A stretch of 64,000 nucleotides of DNA from Flammeovirgaceae bacterium. GTDB taxonomy: Bacteria; Bacteroidota; Bacteroidia; Cytophagales; Cyclobacteriaceae. Position 1 is the first letter of the stretch, and each line of letters begins with the position of its first letter. Below the pieces are notes generated by a model that worked only from the letters and a program-made list of their open reading frames with translations, was not told the DNA's origin and did not search any database. Below, piece after piece: positions 46,409-53,708 of the stretch. The translations under genes were made by a program, and so were the position numbers. The stretch covers positions 1 to 64,000 of the forward strand of contig JAJTGY010000023.1 in assembly GCA_021298015.1 (NCBI GenBank), in the 5' to 3' direction.

Positions 46409-46858
46409 ATGGTAGCTGAAACGTTCATCGGTATGACCATTGATCAGGCACAAGAAGAAATTGTGAGTGAATTCTCCCTGCTCGAGGGCGATCAGGAGAT
46501 GACCGTATTTTACATCATGGAACTGGGCCAAAAGATGCCGCCCTTCCCCGAGACGGCCCGCACTGAGCAAAACGAAGTGAAAGGATGCCAGTCGAAAGTC
46601 TGGATGATAGCGGAGCTGCGCAATGGCCTGATGTACCTTCAAGCCGACAGCAACACCGCCATCACGAAAGGGTTGGTCAGCCTGTTGGTTCGCATCTTTA
46701 GCGGCCACGCACCCGATGAGATATTGAATGCCGAGTTGAGCTTCATGAAAAAGATCGGAATGGAACGGTTTATCGGCACCCAGCGCAGCAACGGGTTTGC
46801 TGCAATGGTTAAACAAATCAAATATTTTGCTTTCGCCTTTCAAGTGAAGAACGCATGA
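46409..46858 (+). CDS. sufE: Sulfur acceptor protein SufE
   Basis: A 149-residue SufE: LEGDQEMTVFYIMELGQKMP (split), the sulfur-accepting cysteine in EVKGCQSKVWM near residue 56, and FIGTQRSNGF. It takes persulfide from SufS. It overlaps the next gene by 4 bases. Confidence 0.95.
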   Translation: MVAETFIGMTIDQAQEEIVSEFSLLEGDQEMTVFYIMELGQKMPPFPETARTEQNEVKGCQSKVWMIAELRNGLMYLQADSNTAITKGLVSLLVRIFSGHAPDEILNAELSFMKKIGMERFIGTQRSNGFAAMVKQIKYFAFAFQVKNA

Positions 46859-47202: not shown

Positions 47203-47283
47203 GGGAACAAAACGATTGTCCCTGTTGTTGTCGAAACATTGCGAAAGCCATTAAACGATTGAATCTTAAACCTTGAATTGACT

Positions 47284-47700
47284 ATGTATCCTGAACAACT
47301 GGTAGCGCCTATGCGCACCGACCTTACGAGTGCAGGCTTTAAAGAACTAAAGACCGCTTCTGATGTTGACCAAACCATGGCCGAAAAAAGCGGCACTAAC
47401 CTGTTGGTCATAAACTCCGTATGCGGCTGCGCGGCCGGAGCGGCACGCCCCGGAATTAAATGGGCATTGGAGCATTCGGCCAAGAAACCCGCCAAACTGA
47501 CGACCGTATTTGCGGGCGTAGATAAAGAAGCCGTGGCCAAAGCGCGCGAGTACACCTTACCTTACCCACCCTCCTCGCCTGCCATCGCACTCTTCAAGGA
47601 CGGTGAGCTGGTGCACTTCATCGAACGACACCACATTGAGGGGCGCAATGCCCAAATGATCGGCCAGCACCTGGTGGAAGTCTTTGATGAATTTTGTTAG
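47284..47700 (+). CDS. Bacilliredoxin-like (BrxA/BrxB, YphP/YqiW) protein
   Basis: A 138-residue protein with the CGC active site in NSVCGCAAGAARPG near residue 52 and VEVFDEFC at the end, matching the BrxA/B family. It removes bacillithiol or other low-molecular thiols from proteins, or isomerises disulfides. Its position after the SUF genes suggests a redox or sulfur link. A terminator follows. Confidence 0.88.
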   Translation: MYPEQLVAPMRTDLTSAGFKELKTASDVDQTMAEKSGTNLLVINSVCGCAAGAARPGIKWALEHSAKKPAKLTTVFAGVDKEAVAKAREYTLPYPPSSPAIALFKDGELVHFIERHHIEGRNAQMIGQHLVEVFDEFC

Positions 47701-49399: not shown

Positions 49400-49810
49400 A
49401 TGAAAATCGCAGTCTCGCGCAAGGAACATTTCAATGCGGCTCATCGGCTGTTTAACCCGGCATGGCCCGATGAAAAGAATGTGCAGGTGTTTGGTAAGTG
49501 CGCCAATCCCAATTACCACGGGCACAACTACGAACTTATAGTAACGGTTGTGGGCCAACCGGACCCGTCTACCGGCTATGTCATAGACATGAAAGTGCTT
49601 AGCGATTTAATCAAAGAACAGGTGCTGATGCCATTTGATCATAAAAACCTTAATTTAGACACCGCTTATTTCAAGAATCTTAACCCTACGGCCGAAAACA
49701 TAGCCGTTGTGATCTGGCGGATTCTCCGGCAGCACATCGACAGCCAGTTTGAACTTCGGGTAAAACTTTATGAAACCGAGCGAAACTTTGTCGAGTACCC
49801 CGTGTTATAA
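49400..49810 (+). CDS. 6-pyruvoyl-tetrahydropterin synthase family protein
   Basis: A 136-residue protein. Zinc ligands and the catalytic cysteine are visible: HFNAAH (His15), GKCANPNYHGHNY (Cys34, His40, His42), MPFDHKNLN, and ETERNFVEYP. The Cys-to-HGH spacing and overall sequence are closest to animal-type PTPS, which makes the tetrahydrobiopterin precursor, rather than to QueD of queuosine synthesis. folE follows 11 bases later, supplying the substrate dihydroneopterin triphosphate. Confidence 0.88.
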   Translation: MKIAVSRKEHFNAAHRLFNPAWPDEKNVQVFGKCANPNYHGHNYELIVTVVGQPDPSTGYVIDMKVLSDLIKEQVLMPFDHKNLNLDTAYFKNLNPTAENIAVVIWRILRQHIDSQFELRVKLYETERNFVEYPVL

Positions 49811-49821
49811 AGGAAAGCAAC

Positions 49822-50508
49822 ATGAGACAAAAAGAAATCGCCCTGAACCTCCGCCCACTCAAACCCCTTGACGTGGATGATGAGGACCATTTTTTCACCA
49901 CCTGGGACACGCCCATGCGTGACGATGCGTTTGAGTTGAGTGATGAGGAAAAGGTCGAAAAAATTGAAAAACATTTCCGTGAAATCATGACGATTTTAGG
50001 TCTTGATCTGACAGACGACAGTCTGCAGGGCACTCCCAAGCGCGTGGCCAAGATGTATGTGAAAGAAGTGTTTAGCGGATTGAATCCGAAGAATCGCCCG
50101 TTGGTCAAGTTGTTCGATAACAAGTACAACTACGATCAGATGCTGGTCGAGAAAGATATCACGTTCTACTCTCATTGCGAGCATCACTTTGTTCCGATCT
50201 ACGGTAAAGTACATGTCGCGTATGTTTCCAGCGGCAATGTGATCGGCTTATCGAAGATCAATCGAATCGTACAATTTTTCGCCAAGCGGCCACAGGTGCA
50301 AGAGCGCCTGACGGTGCAGATCGGCAAAGAGATGCAACGGGTATTGAATACCGAGCACGTGGGTGTGGTTGTTGATGCTAACCACATGTGTGTGGCCTCT
50401 CGTGGGGTTGGCGACACCAATTCCAAAACCGGCACAGCCTACTTCAATGGGAAGTTTAAGGACGAATACACCAAACGCGAGTTTCTCAATTACATCAATT
50501 CAAAATAA
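49822..50508 (+). CDS. folE: GTP cyclohydrolase I
   Basis: A 228-residue protein: LLGLDLTDDSLQGTPKRVAKMYVKE-type N-terminus (residues 55-80), zinc site YSHCEHHFVPIYGKVHVAY, and VVVDANHMCVASRGV. It makes 7,8-dihydroneopterin triphosphate for folate and pterins. Paired with PTPS, it suggests tetrahydrobiopterin synthesis. Terminator directly after. Confidence 0.96.
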   Translation: MRQKEIALNLRPLKPLDVDDEDHFFTTWDTPMRDDAFELSDEEKVEKIEKHFREIMTILGLDLTDDSLQGTPKRVAKMYVKEVFSGLNPKNRPLVKLFDNKYNYDQMLVEKDITFYSHCEHHFVPIYGKVHVAYVSSGNVIGLSKINRIVQFFAKRPQVQERLTVQIGKEMQRVLNTEHVGVVVDANHMCVASRGVGDTNSKTGTAYFNGKFKDEYTKREFLNYINSK

Positions 50509-50613: not shown

Positions 50614-53058
50614 ATGGTATTTGACCTGGACATGATCAAGGCTTTGTACAGCCAGATTCCCGGACGCATCGCGAAAGCCCGCAAGGCAGTGGGTCGCCCC
50701 CTCACCCTTTCGGAAAAAATACTTTACAGCCACCTTCATGGCGATCAAAAGTTGGAGAATTTTGGTCGGGGTAAGTCGTATGTCGACTTTGCCCCCGACC
50801 GGGTAGCCATGCAGGATGCTACCGCACAAATGGCGCTGTTACAGTTTATGTCGGCCGGCCGGCCAAAAGTTGCCGTGCCGAGTACCGTACACTGCGATCA
50901 CCTGATCGTGGCTAAATCCGGAGCAAAGGAAGATTTGACAGCCGCTAACCTGGAGAGCCGTGAGGTATTTGATTTCCTGGCCTCGGTATCCAACAAATAT
51001 GGCATCGGTTTCTGGAAGCCGGGAGCCGGCATTATTCACCAGGTAGTGCTGGAAAATTACGCCTTCCCCGGGGGTATGATGATTGGAACAGACTCCCATA
51101 CGGTTAACGCGGGTGGTCTGGGAATGGTCGCTATTGGCGTTGGCGGTGCCGATGCGGTTGACGTGATGGCTGGCATGGCTTGGGAACTGAAGTTTCCGAA
51201 ACTGATTGGCGTGAAACTTACCGGCAAAATGAGCGGCTGGACATCAGCCAAAGATGTGATCTTGAAAGTGGCCGGAATCCTCACCGTTAAGGGTGGAACA
51301 GGCGCTATTGTCGAGTACTTTGGAGAAGGCGCTACCTCAATGAGTTGTACAGGAAAAGGCACGATTTGTAACATGGGTGCCGAGATCGGAGCAACAACGT
51401 CCACGTTCGGATATGATGCCTCGATGGAGCGATACCTTATCGCAACCGGCCGTGCTGAAGTAGCCCAGATGGCTAACAAAATCAAGGAACACCTTACAGC
51501 CGACCCGGAAGTGTATGCGAATCCTGAAAAGTATTTTGATCAAATTGTCGAGATCAATCTGAGTGAGTTGGAGCCGCACCTCAACGGTCCGTTTACTCCG
51601 GACCTTGCCACACCGATCAGCAAGATGAAAGATGAAGCCGCCCGCAACGGCTGGCCCACACGTGTCGAAGTAGGTCTGATCGGCTCCTGTACCAACTCCT
51701 CGTACGAGGACATTGCCCGTGCTGCCAGTCTGGCCAAACAGGTCGCGAACAAAGGTTTGAAAACCAAAGCAGAATTCACCATCACCCCCGGCTCTGAGCA
51801 GGTGCGCTACACCATTGAGCGAGACGGTTTTATCAATACGTTCGATAAGATTGGCGCTAAAGTGTTCGCCAATGCGTGCGGTCCTTGCATTGGTATGTGG
51901 AACCGCTACGGATCGGACAAAAAGGAAAAGAACACGATTGTACACTCGTTCAACCGCAACTTCCAGAGCCGCAACGATGGCAACCCCAATACATTTGCAT
52001 TCGTAGGTTCTCCGGAACTGGTAACGGCCATTGCGATTGCCGGTGACCTCACCTTCAACCCGCTTACCGATTACCTGACTAACGAAAAAGGTGAGCAGGT
52101 AAAATTAGACCCACCGGTAGGTGATGAATTGCCCAAAATGGGCTTTGACGTGAAAGACCCGGGCTACCAGGCCCCCGCCAAAGACGGAAGCAAAGTATCA
52201 GTTAAAATTGACCCGAAATCAGATCGTTTGCAGGCATTAGCTCCGTTTGCTCCCTGGGATGGCAAAAACTTCACCGGGCTGAAGTTGCTGATCAAGGCGA
52301 AGGGTAAGTGCACGACCGACCACATTTCCATGGCCGGCAAGTGGTTGAAGTACCGCGGGCACCTCGACAACATCAGCAACAACCTGCTGATTGGTGCCAC
52401 AAATTATTTCAACGAGAAACAGAACAGCGTGAAGAACCAACTCACGGGCAGCTATGATGAAGTACCCAAGGTTCAACGCGCCTACAAAGCATCCAAAATA
52501 GGCTCTATTGTGGTGGGTGACGAAAACTACGGTGAAGGTTCATCCCGCGAGCACGCTGCGATGGAGCCCCGCCACCTTGGCGTCAAAGTCATTCTGGTAA
52601 AATCATTTGCCCGCATTCACGAAACCAACCTCAAGAAGCAAGGCATGCTGGCGGTCACGTTTGCCAATAAGGACGACTACAATAAGATTAAAGAAGATGA
52701 TACGTTTGATATCATCGACCTGGCATCCTTTGCTCCGGAGAAACCCCTGACGCTGGTCGTGAAGCACAGTGATGGCACGCAGGACACGGTGAAACTAAAT
52801 CATACCTACAACGCCAACCAAATCTTGTGGTTCCGTGCAGGCTCTGCCCTCAACGCTATGCAGAAGCCAACCGCGAAAACTGCGGCCAAACCGGCAGCGA
52901 AGAAAGTGGCCAAGAAAAAGCAAAAGCCGGCTGCCCGCAAGAAGGCCCGGCCCGTAGCAAAAAAGAAAGCGCCAGCGGCCAGAAAAAAGACGGCCAAGAA
53001 ATCGGCAAAAAAGGCTGTCCGTAAGGTGGCCCGCAAAGCTGCTAAAAAGAAGAAGTAA
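50614..53058 (+). CDS. acn: Aconitate hydratase with a histone-H1-like C-terminal tail
   Basis: An 814-residue protein. Residues 1-748 are a mitochondrial-type aconitase: [36 protein letters not shown] and [11 protein letters not shown], the latter two holding the three cluster cysteines, then [17 protein letters not shown] and [10 protein letters not shown]. The ordinary family ends close to the ALNAMQ at 748. The final 66 residues (749-814, from 52858) are composed almost only of Lys, Ala, Arg and Pro: about 26 Lys, 5 Arg, 19 Ala, no acidic residue, with AAKK and AARKK repeats, resembling histone H1/Hc1 tails. The tail is in frame and uninterrupted. Nucleic-acid binding by this tail is inferred. 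A hairpin follows the stop. Confidence 0.95.
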
Positions 53059-53063
53059 TTGGA

Positions 53064-53096
53064 CGCTGAGCGCAGCCCCCGGGGTTGCGCACAGCG
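53064..53096 (+). terminator. Long hairpin after the aconitase gene
   Basis: CGCTG-A-GCGCA-G-CCC pairs with GGG-T-TGCGC-A-CAGCG across a short loop, directly after the stop. No T-run follows, so it may protect or end the mRNA by another route. Confidence 0.6.
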
Positions 53097-53153
53097 TTAC
53101 ATAACAACTCGTATCGATTTCCTGTTTTGTAAGAAATAGTCATTCCTGTTTTT

Positions 53154-53708
53154 ATGAAGAAAAGTGCTAACAACCCAGCTCGTTCGCTCTCAAAAGAGAC
53201 CGAAGCCCTGTTGAACAACCAAATCATGATGGAGGGCAAGTCCTCCGCGCAATATTTATCGATGGCATCTTGGTGCGAATCAAAGGGATATGAGATTTCC
53301 AGCCAGTTCCTGTATAAGCACTCCGAAGAAGAACGCATGCACATGCTGAAGCTCTTTGGTTACGTTAACGGTGCCGGAGGCCATGCCCTGCAACCTGAAA
53401 TCAAGGGCATTCAACACACGTTCAAAAGCCTTCGCGAAGTGTTTGATCACGTGCTGCAACATGAACTGGCGGTGACGGCCTCCATTAACAACCTGGTTGA
53501 CCACACCTTAAAAAATAAGGACTTCGCTACCTTTAACTTCCTGCAATGGTATGTGAACGAACAGCGCGAGGAAGAGATCATCGCCCGCAGAGCTGTCGAA
53601 TTGTTTGAACTGATTGGCGAGGACGGTGTGGGATTGTTTATGATCGATCAAGAGATTGGAAAACTGGAACAGTTCGGCCAAAAGATGTCGGGCGAGGGAG
53701 CCGCGTAG
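53154..53708 (+). CDS. ftn: Ferritin
   Basis: A 184-residue protein: QIMMEGKSSAQYLSMASWCE, the EEERMHMLKLFGYVNGAGG ferroxidase helix (HSEEERMHM), HELAVTASIN, and WYVNEQREEE; the E/H ligands of a bacterial ferritin are present. It stores iron as ferric oxide. It lies 95 bases after aconitase. A basic, slightly extended N-terminus (MKKSANNPARSL) precedes the four-helix bundle. Confidence 0.94.
   Translation: MKKSANNPARSLSKETEALLNNQIMMEGKSSAQYLSMASWCESKGYEISSQFLYKHSEEERMHMLKLFGYVNGAGGHALQPEIKGIQHTFKSLREVFDHVLQHELAVTASINNLVDHTLKNKDFATFNFLQWYVNEQREEEIIARRAVELFELIGEDGVGLFMIDQEIGKLEQFGQKMSGEGAA

Follow-up and report, generated by a model that had tools for sequence, protein, structure and literature searches.

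Across a clade of Cyclobacteriaceae, aconitase carries a lysine- and alanine-rich C-terminal tail, and this tail follows the lineage of the host and not the core of the enzyme to which it is joined. The gene at the centre of this analysis lies on the forward strand of a 64,000-nucleotide stretch of contig JAJTGY010000023.1 from a Flammeovirgaceae bacterium (hereafter the window), where an 814-residue open reading frame with an ATG start (50614–53058) continues without a break in frame across position 52858, the first nucleotide of the tail. The core (residues 1–748; 50614..52857) matches the mitochondrial aconitase profile TIGR01340 (aconitase_mito) over residues 12–749, spanning profile positions 1–745 of 745 at 1143 bits against a curated cut-off of 825 bits, and both Pfam Aconitase and Aconitase_C match the same frame. 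Pig mitochondrial aconitase (5acn), whose 754-residue chain has no tail of this kind, aligns to residues 16–751, so that the surplus in the window protein comes to about 60–66 residues. A structure model built from a shallow alignment of 25 sequences (mean pLDDT 67) finds its best Foldseek folds in the aconitases 1nis, 1aco and 5acn, and C359, C422 and C425, which we take to be the three cluster-binding cysteines of aconitase, are invariant across 25 aligned aconitase sequences. The AcnA/IRP1-type profile TIGR01341 scores 241.6 bits, under its curated cut-off of 945 bits, and the acnB profile likewise stays under its cut-off. Judged by its sequence, the window protein is a mitochondrial-type aconitase outside the AcnA class that takes in IRP1-like enzymes; its extra end makes it a variant within the mitochondrial-type family, of which it is still a member. 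The first-pass annotation had described an aconitase complete to residue 748 that runs in frame into a 66-residue tail, as the unbroken frame and the full-length TIGR01340 match confirm, and its remark that aconitases usually end near the tail start, which for the mitochondrial type means shortly past the SALN motif, holds for 5acn and for all 17 genes read from 22 genomes of other families of the order, which are tail-less and end 5–13 residues past residue 748.

The tail itself (residues 749–814; 52858..53055, with the stop codon at 53056–53058) is delimited by composition, the structure model and relatives. Its 66 residues include 31 K or R (26 K and 5 R) and 19 A, with D and E both absent, and our recount thereby returns exactly the numbers of basic residues, alanines and acidic residues first given for it. 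Among 20,334 stretches of 66 residues taken from stop-to-stop open reading frames of at least 150 codons on both strands of the window, none besides the tail combines at least 31 K/R with the absence of D/E, and the highest net charge of any other stretch is +19, compared with +31 for the tail. The tail is predicted to be disordered, with pLDDT values of 31–39 and no secondary structure from residue 751 in the model. Being Lys/Ala-rich and acid-free with a KKxx rhythm, it has the composition that characterizes H1-like tails; the original likening to H1-type proteins therefore stands as regards composition and lysine rhythm, but does not extend to a profile shared with H1-like families, as the tail alone matched no family in Pfam and none in NCBIfam up to E 10, in a search where low complexity makes matches unlikely anyway. 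Expansion of a DNA repeat without constraint on the protein is not favored, because a search of 52700–53200 gave no tandem repeat and the Lys and Ala codons of the tail are mixed.

We then consider which genomes have the tail. The gene end is readable in 32 of the 36 genus genomes (the others being G004, G010, G021 and G030); 29 of the 32 have an intact tail, two have a frameshifted one (G013 and G024), and one, G016, is tail-less and ends in LNLMGKK. Two further genus members, G074 and G193, are tailed, the G193 gene running off its contig. In G013 (L011) and G024 (L018) the reading frame is lost near the start of the tail while tail-like coding sequence continues in a different frame, and because the folE and queD matches of these two genomes are also partial, we read them as probably error-prone assemblies. 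The tail is nearly clade-wide, with one clear loss among the 32 readable genus genomes. At least 14 of the 144 genomes from other genera of the family are tailed, in seven genera (g37, g45, g54, g65, g86, g95 and g105); the gene end was read in 38 of them (14 tailed, and 24 tail-less with 5–8 residues after residue 748), and the remaining 106 were judged by the matches listed alone. The best 80 of a longer list of named loci comprise 4 that are tailed, 74 with 9 residues or fewer and 2 that are cut off. A class-wide search matched 122 of 149 genomes. Besides the window, the one match that ran on through the tail free of stops was G122, a tailed member of the same family; 13 class-level genes, chosen in most cases for their long open frames, extend 4–9 residues past the core. 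Two doubts raised at the outset were that the tail might be absent from every close relative or might be a frameshift artefact at 52.86 kb. The comparison of related assemblies proposed there removes the first, with nearly all readable genus members tailed and seven further genera besides, and we reject a frameshift or assembly artefact because the tail is in frame both in the window and in 29 of the 32 readable genus genomes.

The tailed enzymes do not share a single core. A core tree of 100 rows (45 tailed), chosen from 171 by omitting fragmentary genes, duplicate rows for one gene, a single cut-off row and the majority of named loci, splits the tailed cores into two groups: type I (35 rows, including the window), which has the tail-less G016 as its neighbor and, close by, tail-less cores from other Bacteroidota and from two records titled Leptospira, and type II (10 rows), which is placed among tail-less cores that belong for the most part to the same family. 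A single clade of all tailed cores is rejected (p-AU 1.9e-5), also when G016 is added (p-AU 1.3e-4, or 0.011 under LG+G4 with 84 rows). A quick RpoB tree joins 25 tailed hosts and G016 in one clade (SH-aLRT 100), apart from 30 family members without a tail; the two enzyme types are scattered within this clade (5 changes, with shuffled labels giving a mean of 6.9 and a minimum of 4). A careful RpoB tree of 26 rows agrees, its starred branches alone forcing at least 3 changes for each type, and the folE tree shows no clear sorting by enzyme type (5 changes, shuffled mean 6.5). Possession of the tail tracks the ancestry of the host and not that of the enzyme core, a pattern that argues for selection acting on the tail.

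Under the most economical account, the enzyme part was swapped at its locus on several occasions within the clade, and the tail was retained, or regained, by the host lineage. A methionine at the tail root (LNLM) is found in 7 of the 10 type II enzymes, in common with many type I enzymes, and the tail-less rows shown mostly have LNLI or LNII at the matching position; this shared root, a matter of one residue, favors a tail that was handed on over one invented a second time. The 3′ end of the gene may also have been carried through such swaps passively. An ancestor with two tailed paralogues, and losses later on, would fit as well; in the set with the 36 genus genomes and the 22 from other families, no second full-length acn copy was found in any genome among the rows listed. 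We do not claim that the core was replaced inside the gene between native ends, although some comparisons are suggestive: over columns 1–40 types I and II are 80% alike, compared with 64% between type II and the tail-less lookalikes of type I, and the signal against a single tailed clade lies mainly in residues 92–508, but shuffled sites gave 0.08 for either end and 0.02 for the middle run, and a tree on residues 1–240 plus 521–748 still separates the two types. Separately, in the type I gene L020 (G015), the last ~50 core residues resemble type II by eye, as in a recombinant.

By analogy with H1-like tails, we give an even chance to the reading that the disordered cationic arm holds aconitase on the nucleoid, on RNA or on both. 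The gene would yield a normal [4Fe-4S] aconitase bearing a permanent, disordered and strongly cationic arm, whose KKxx rhythm would bind phosphate backbones without sequence specificity and so might hold some of the cell's aconitase on the nucleoid, on RNA or on both; the enzyme could then double as a nucleoid- or RNA-associated protein alongside its TCA-cycle role, like yeast mitochondrial aconitase. Three points here are inferences: translation of the tail, its binding to nucleic acid and the usefulness of that binding. We prefer a nucleic-acid tether on account of two bodies of precedent, that of H1-like tails and the DNA-binding record of mitochondrial-type aconitase. Concerning the first, the PAKK/KAAK domain of HupB is reported to be needed for nucleoid association (PMC5676037), and one source describes KPAA peptides of AlgP as binding DNA and PhaF as thought to tether granules to the chromosome (PMC9239181). 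All three resemble the window protein in having a Lys/Ala/Pro-rich arm, but they carry it as dedicated nucleoid or granule proteins, whereas here it sits on a TCA-cycle enzyme and has no profile match. Mosquito ribosomal protein S6 is likewise described with an H1-like C-terminal extension on a non-histone protein (PMC548281), although it is an animal ribosomal protein and no relation is implied. Concerning the second, the closest biological precedent is yeast Aco1, of the same enzyme class as the window protein (residues 12–749), which is reported to bind and stabilize mtDNA with no need for its catalytic activity (PMC7463775, PMC11431987). Fission-yeast Aco2, an aconitase fused to the mitochondrial ribosomal protein bL21, is reported to act at heterochromatin (PMC11431987), and RNA binding has been reported for IRP1 and E. 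coli AcnB (PMC10380284), which are aconitases of other classes than the window protein. Aco2 and the window protein are alike in uniting an aconitase and a nucleic-acid-tied part in one polypeptide, but the additional part of Aco2 is a folded ribosomal protein domain, in a eukaryote, where the window protein has a Lys/Ala arm that is predicted to be disordered.

Polycations also bind polyanions other than nucleic acid, and the main rival to a nucleic-acid tether is polyphosphate or an acidic partner, such that the tail would bind polyphosphate granules, a membrane surface or a TCA-cycle enzyme and place aconitase in a granule or enzyme cluster. We consider this unlikely. AlgP, which has a similar H1-like C-terminus, is reported to locate to polyphosphate granules (PMC9239181), and a polyphosphate kinase gene is present in the window's genome, but the kinase does not track the tail, since 29 of the 30 genomes examined, with and without tails and G016 among them, have it, and the one in which it was missed is 76% complete. 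A partner within the cycle would accord with a small free Lys/Ala protein encoded 1.1–3.7 kb from citrate synthase, the preceding cycle enzyme, in 6 of the 18 genomes searched (G000, G008, G017, G020, G026 and G031), though this neighborhood may be due to chance.

The gene in G000 (G000:C61:23335-23610; L168:2336-2611) lies 1.7 kb upstream of citrate synthase and encodes a free H1-like protein of 92 residues with a Lys/Ala/Pro make-up. In the window's own genome, a DNA pattern for AKKxxKK occurs at 16 places, compared with 4 for the reversed control; six of these are in one small free Lys/Ala gene and two in the acn tail, while two overlapping places at C69 fall where there is no open frame of more than 30 codons. 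A 141-residue tail query against 16 genomes returned its own gene and one weak match, and it missed the known aconitase tails of the other tailed genomes, so that a lack of matches in this search is no sign of absence. In a tailed relative, a Lys-rich stretch within a 623-codon open frame (G178:C2:265713-265910) gives a weak match to a tail (E 0.0014).

The variation among tails bears both on the nucleic-acid tether and on the possibility that the tail is a tolerated, functionless low-complexity appendage kept by inertia. The 43 tails, among which L059 is cut by a contig end, are 51–153 residues long (median 92) with net charges of +23 to +71 (median +40); 28 of the 43 have no acidic residue at all, and 41 have none within the last 40 residues. 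In types I and II, respectively, K makes up 41% of the tail in both and A 22% and 19%, and basic residues recur at i+1 with frequencies of 0.47 and 0.49 and at i+4 with 0.69 and 0.67. In nine of ten close pairs, the cores are 93–99% identical and the tails 60–83%; in the tenth, made up of the window and G007, the tails are identical where they align, with four extra in-frame residues in G007. This fast turnover would suit an inert appendage, as would the in-frame inserts in two tails and the tail-less state of G016. Against inertia, composition, charge and rhythm are constant over eight genera while the sequence changes, there is one clear loss in 32 readable genus genomes, and the tail is present on both enzyme types; we regard a functionless tail as quite improbable. 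The constant make-up, together with the i+4 lysines, acid-free ends, mixed codons and lack of a tandem repeat, argues for constraint at the protein level, and a free sequence with fixed composition is as expected of an unspecific polycationic arm. The tail-coding DNA of L057 (G160) and L023 (G011) contains, at different sites, a short imperfect palindrome in frame, which is probably a dispersed repeat and of which no copy was found in the window with up to 3 mismatches.

Slightly more improbable still is that the tail acts on its own enzyme, by way of solubility, stability, protection of the cluster or the drawing of citrate or isocitrate to the active site. In the loci read the tail is always joined to the end of aconitase, and the tailed cores are nearly neutral, with a mean net charge of +0.6 (type I) and −0.2 (type II) compared with −19.1 in 55 tail-less rows. 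However, cores lacking the tail are conserved and presumably active as they are, tail length ranges threefold, the lower acidity is in part common to proteins of these hosts, much of it being shared by citrate synthase and, to a smaller degree, RpoB, and the tail-less G016 core has a charge of −5. Per 100 residues, the charge of the aconitase core is −0.08 in tailed and −2.72 in tail-less hosts (23 and 6 genomes), that of citrate synthase −0.34 and −1.70 (23 and 6 genomes) and that of RpoB −2.01 and −2.63 (18 and 5 genomes). With citrate synthase and RpoB shifting alike and G016 weakly charged, we do not claim core charge as proof of polyanion binding.

The gene had further been placed between the SUF operon and ferritin, from which a link between iron status and nucleic-acid binding was proposed. 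Ferritin is indeed directly downstream of acn (53154..53708, forward strand; Pfam Ferritin), but SUF is not adjacent: the SUF-like genes, recognized by eye, end at 46858, nearly 4 kb upstream, and are followed by an open reading frame at 47278–47700, an antiporter-like gene and the immediate upstream neighbors of acn, a queD-like 6-pyruvoyl tetrahydropterin synthase gene (49400..49810, forward strand; Pfam PTPS) and folE, encoding GTP cyclohydrolase I (49822..50508, forward strand; Pfam GTP_cyclohydroI). folE is usually the upstream neighbor of tailed acn genes of both enzyme types, detected beside at least 35 of 45 tailed loci (type I at least 27 of 35, type II at least 8 of 10), compared with at least 9 of 45 for ferritin, all of these being lower bounds because the flanks are mostly 1.5 kb or less. 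The argument for a link to iron status is weakened by the distance to SUF and by this difference between ferritin and folE. RNA binding by IRP1 is uncovered when its cluster is lost; the tail, by contrast, could bind regardless of cluster state. An iron switch of the IRP kind is not supported, with TIGR01341 under its cut-off, SUF distant and ferritin detected at few tailed loci.

Among the titles and abstract openings listed from open-licence PMC papers, we found no description of a lysine-rich tail on a bacterial aconitase. We tentatively propose that a clade of Cyclobacteriaceae made aconitase a standing nucleoid- or RNA-bound protein, keeping an arm that belongs to the host lineage while the enzyme beneath it was replaced on several occasions at one chromosomal site. 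Such an enzyme would parallel yeast Aco1 in bacteria: a metabolic protein would belong permanently to the packaged chromosome, and the protection of DNA or RNA would be tied to TCA-cycle and iron-sulfur status. Because metabolic enzymes rarely have a dedicated part for it, their binding to nucleic acid is difficult to prove meaningful; here a central enzyme seems to have a cleanly removable putative binding part, which is nearly clade-wide and occurs on two enzyme lineages. Whether aconitase benefits from a seat on nucleic acid is directly testable, since nature offers enzymes with and without the tail, a genus member that lacks it (G016) and a tail that can be transferred. The chief interest is that the tail follows the host, which makes it a good case of an appendage inherited separately from the enzyme that bears it.
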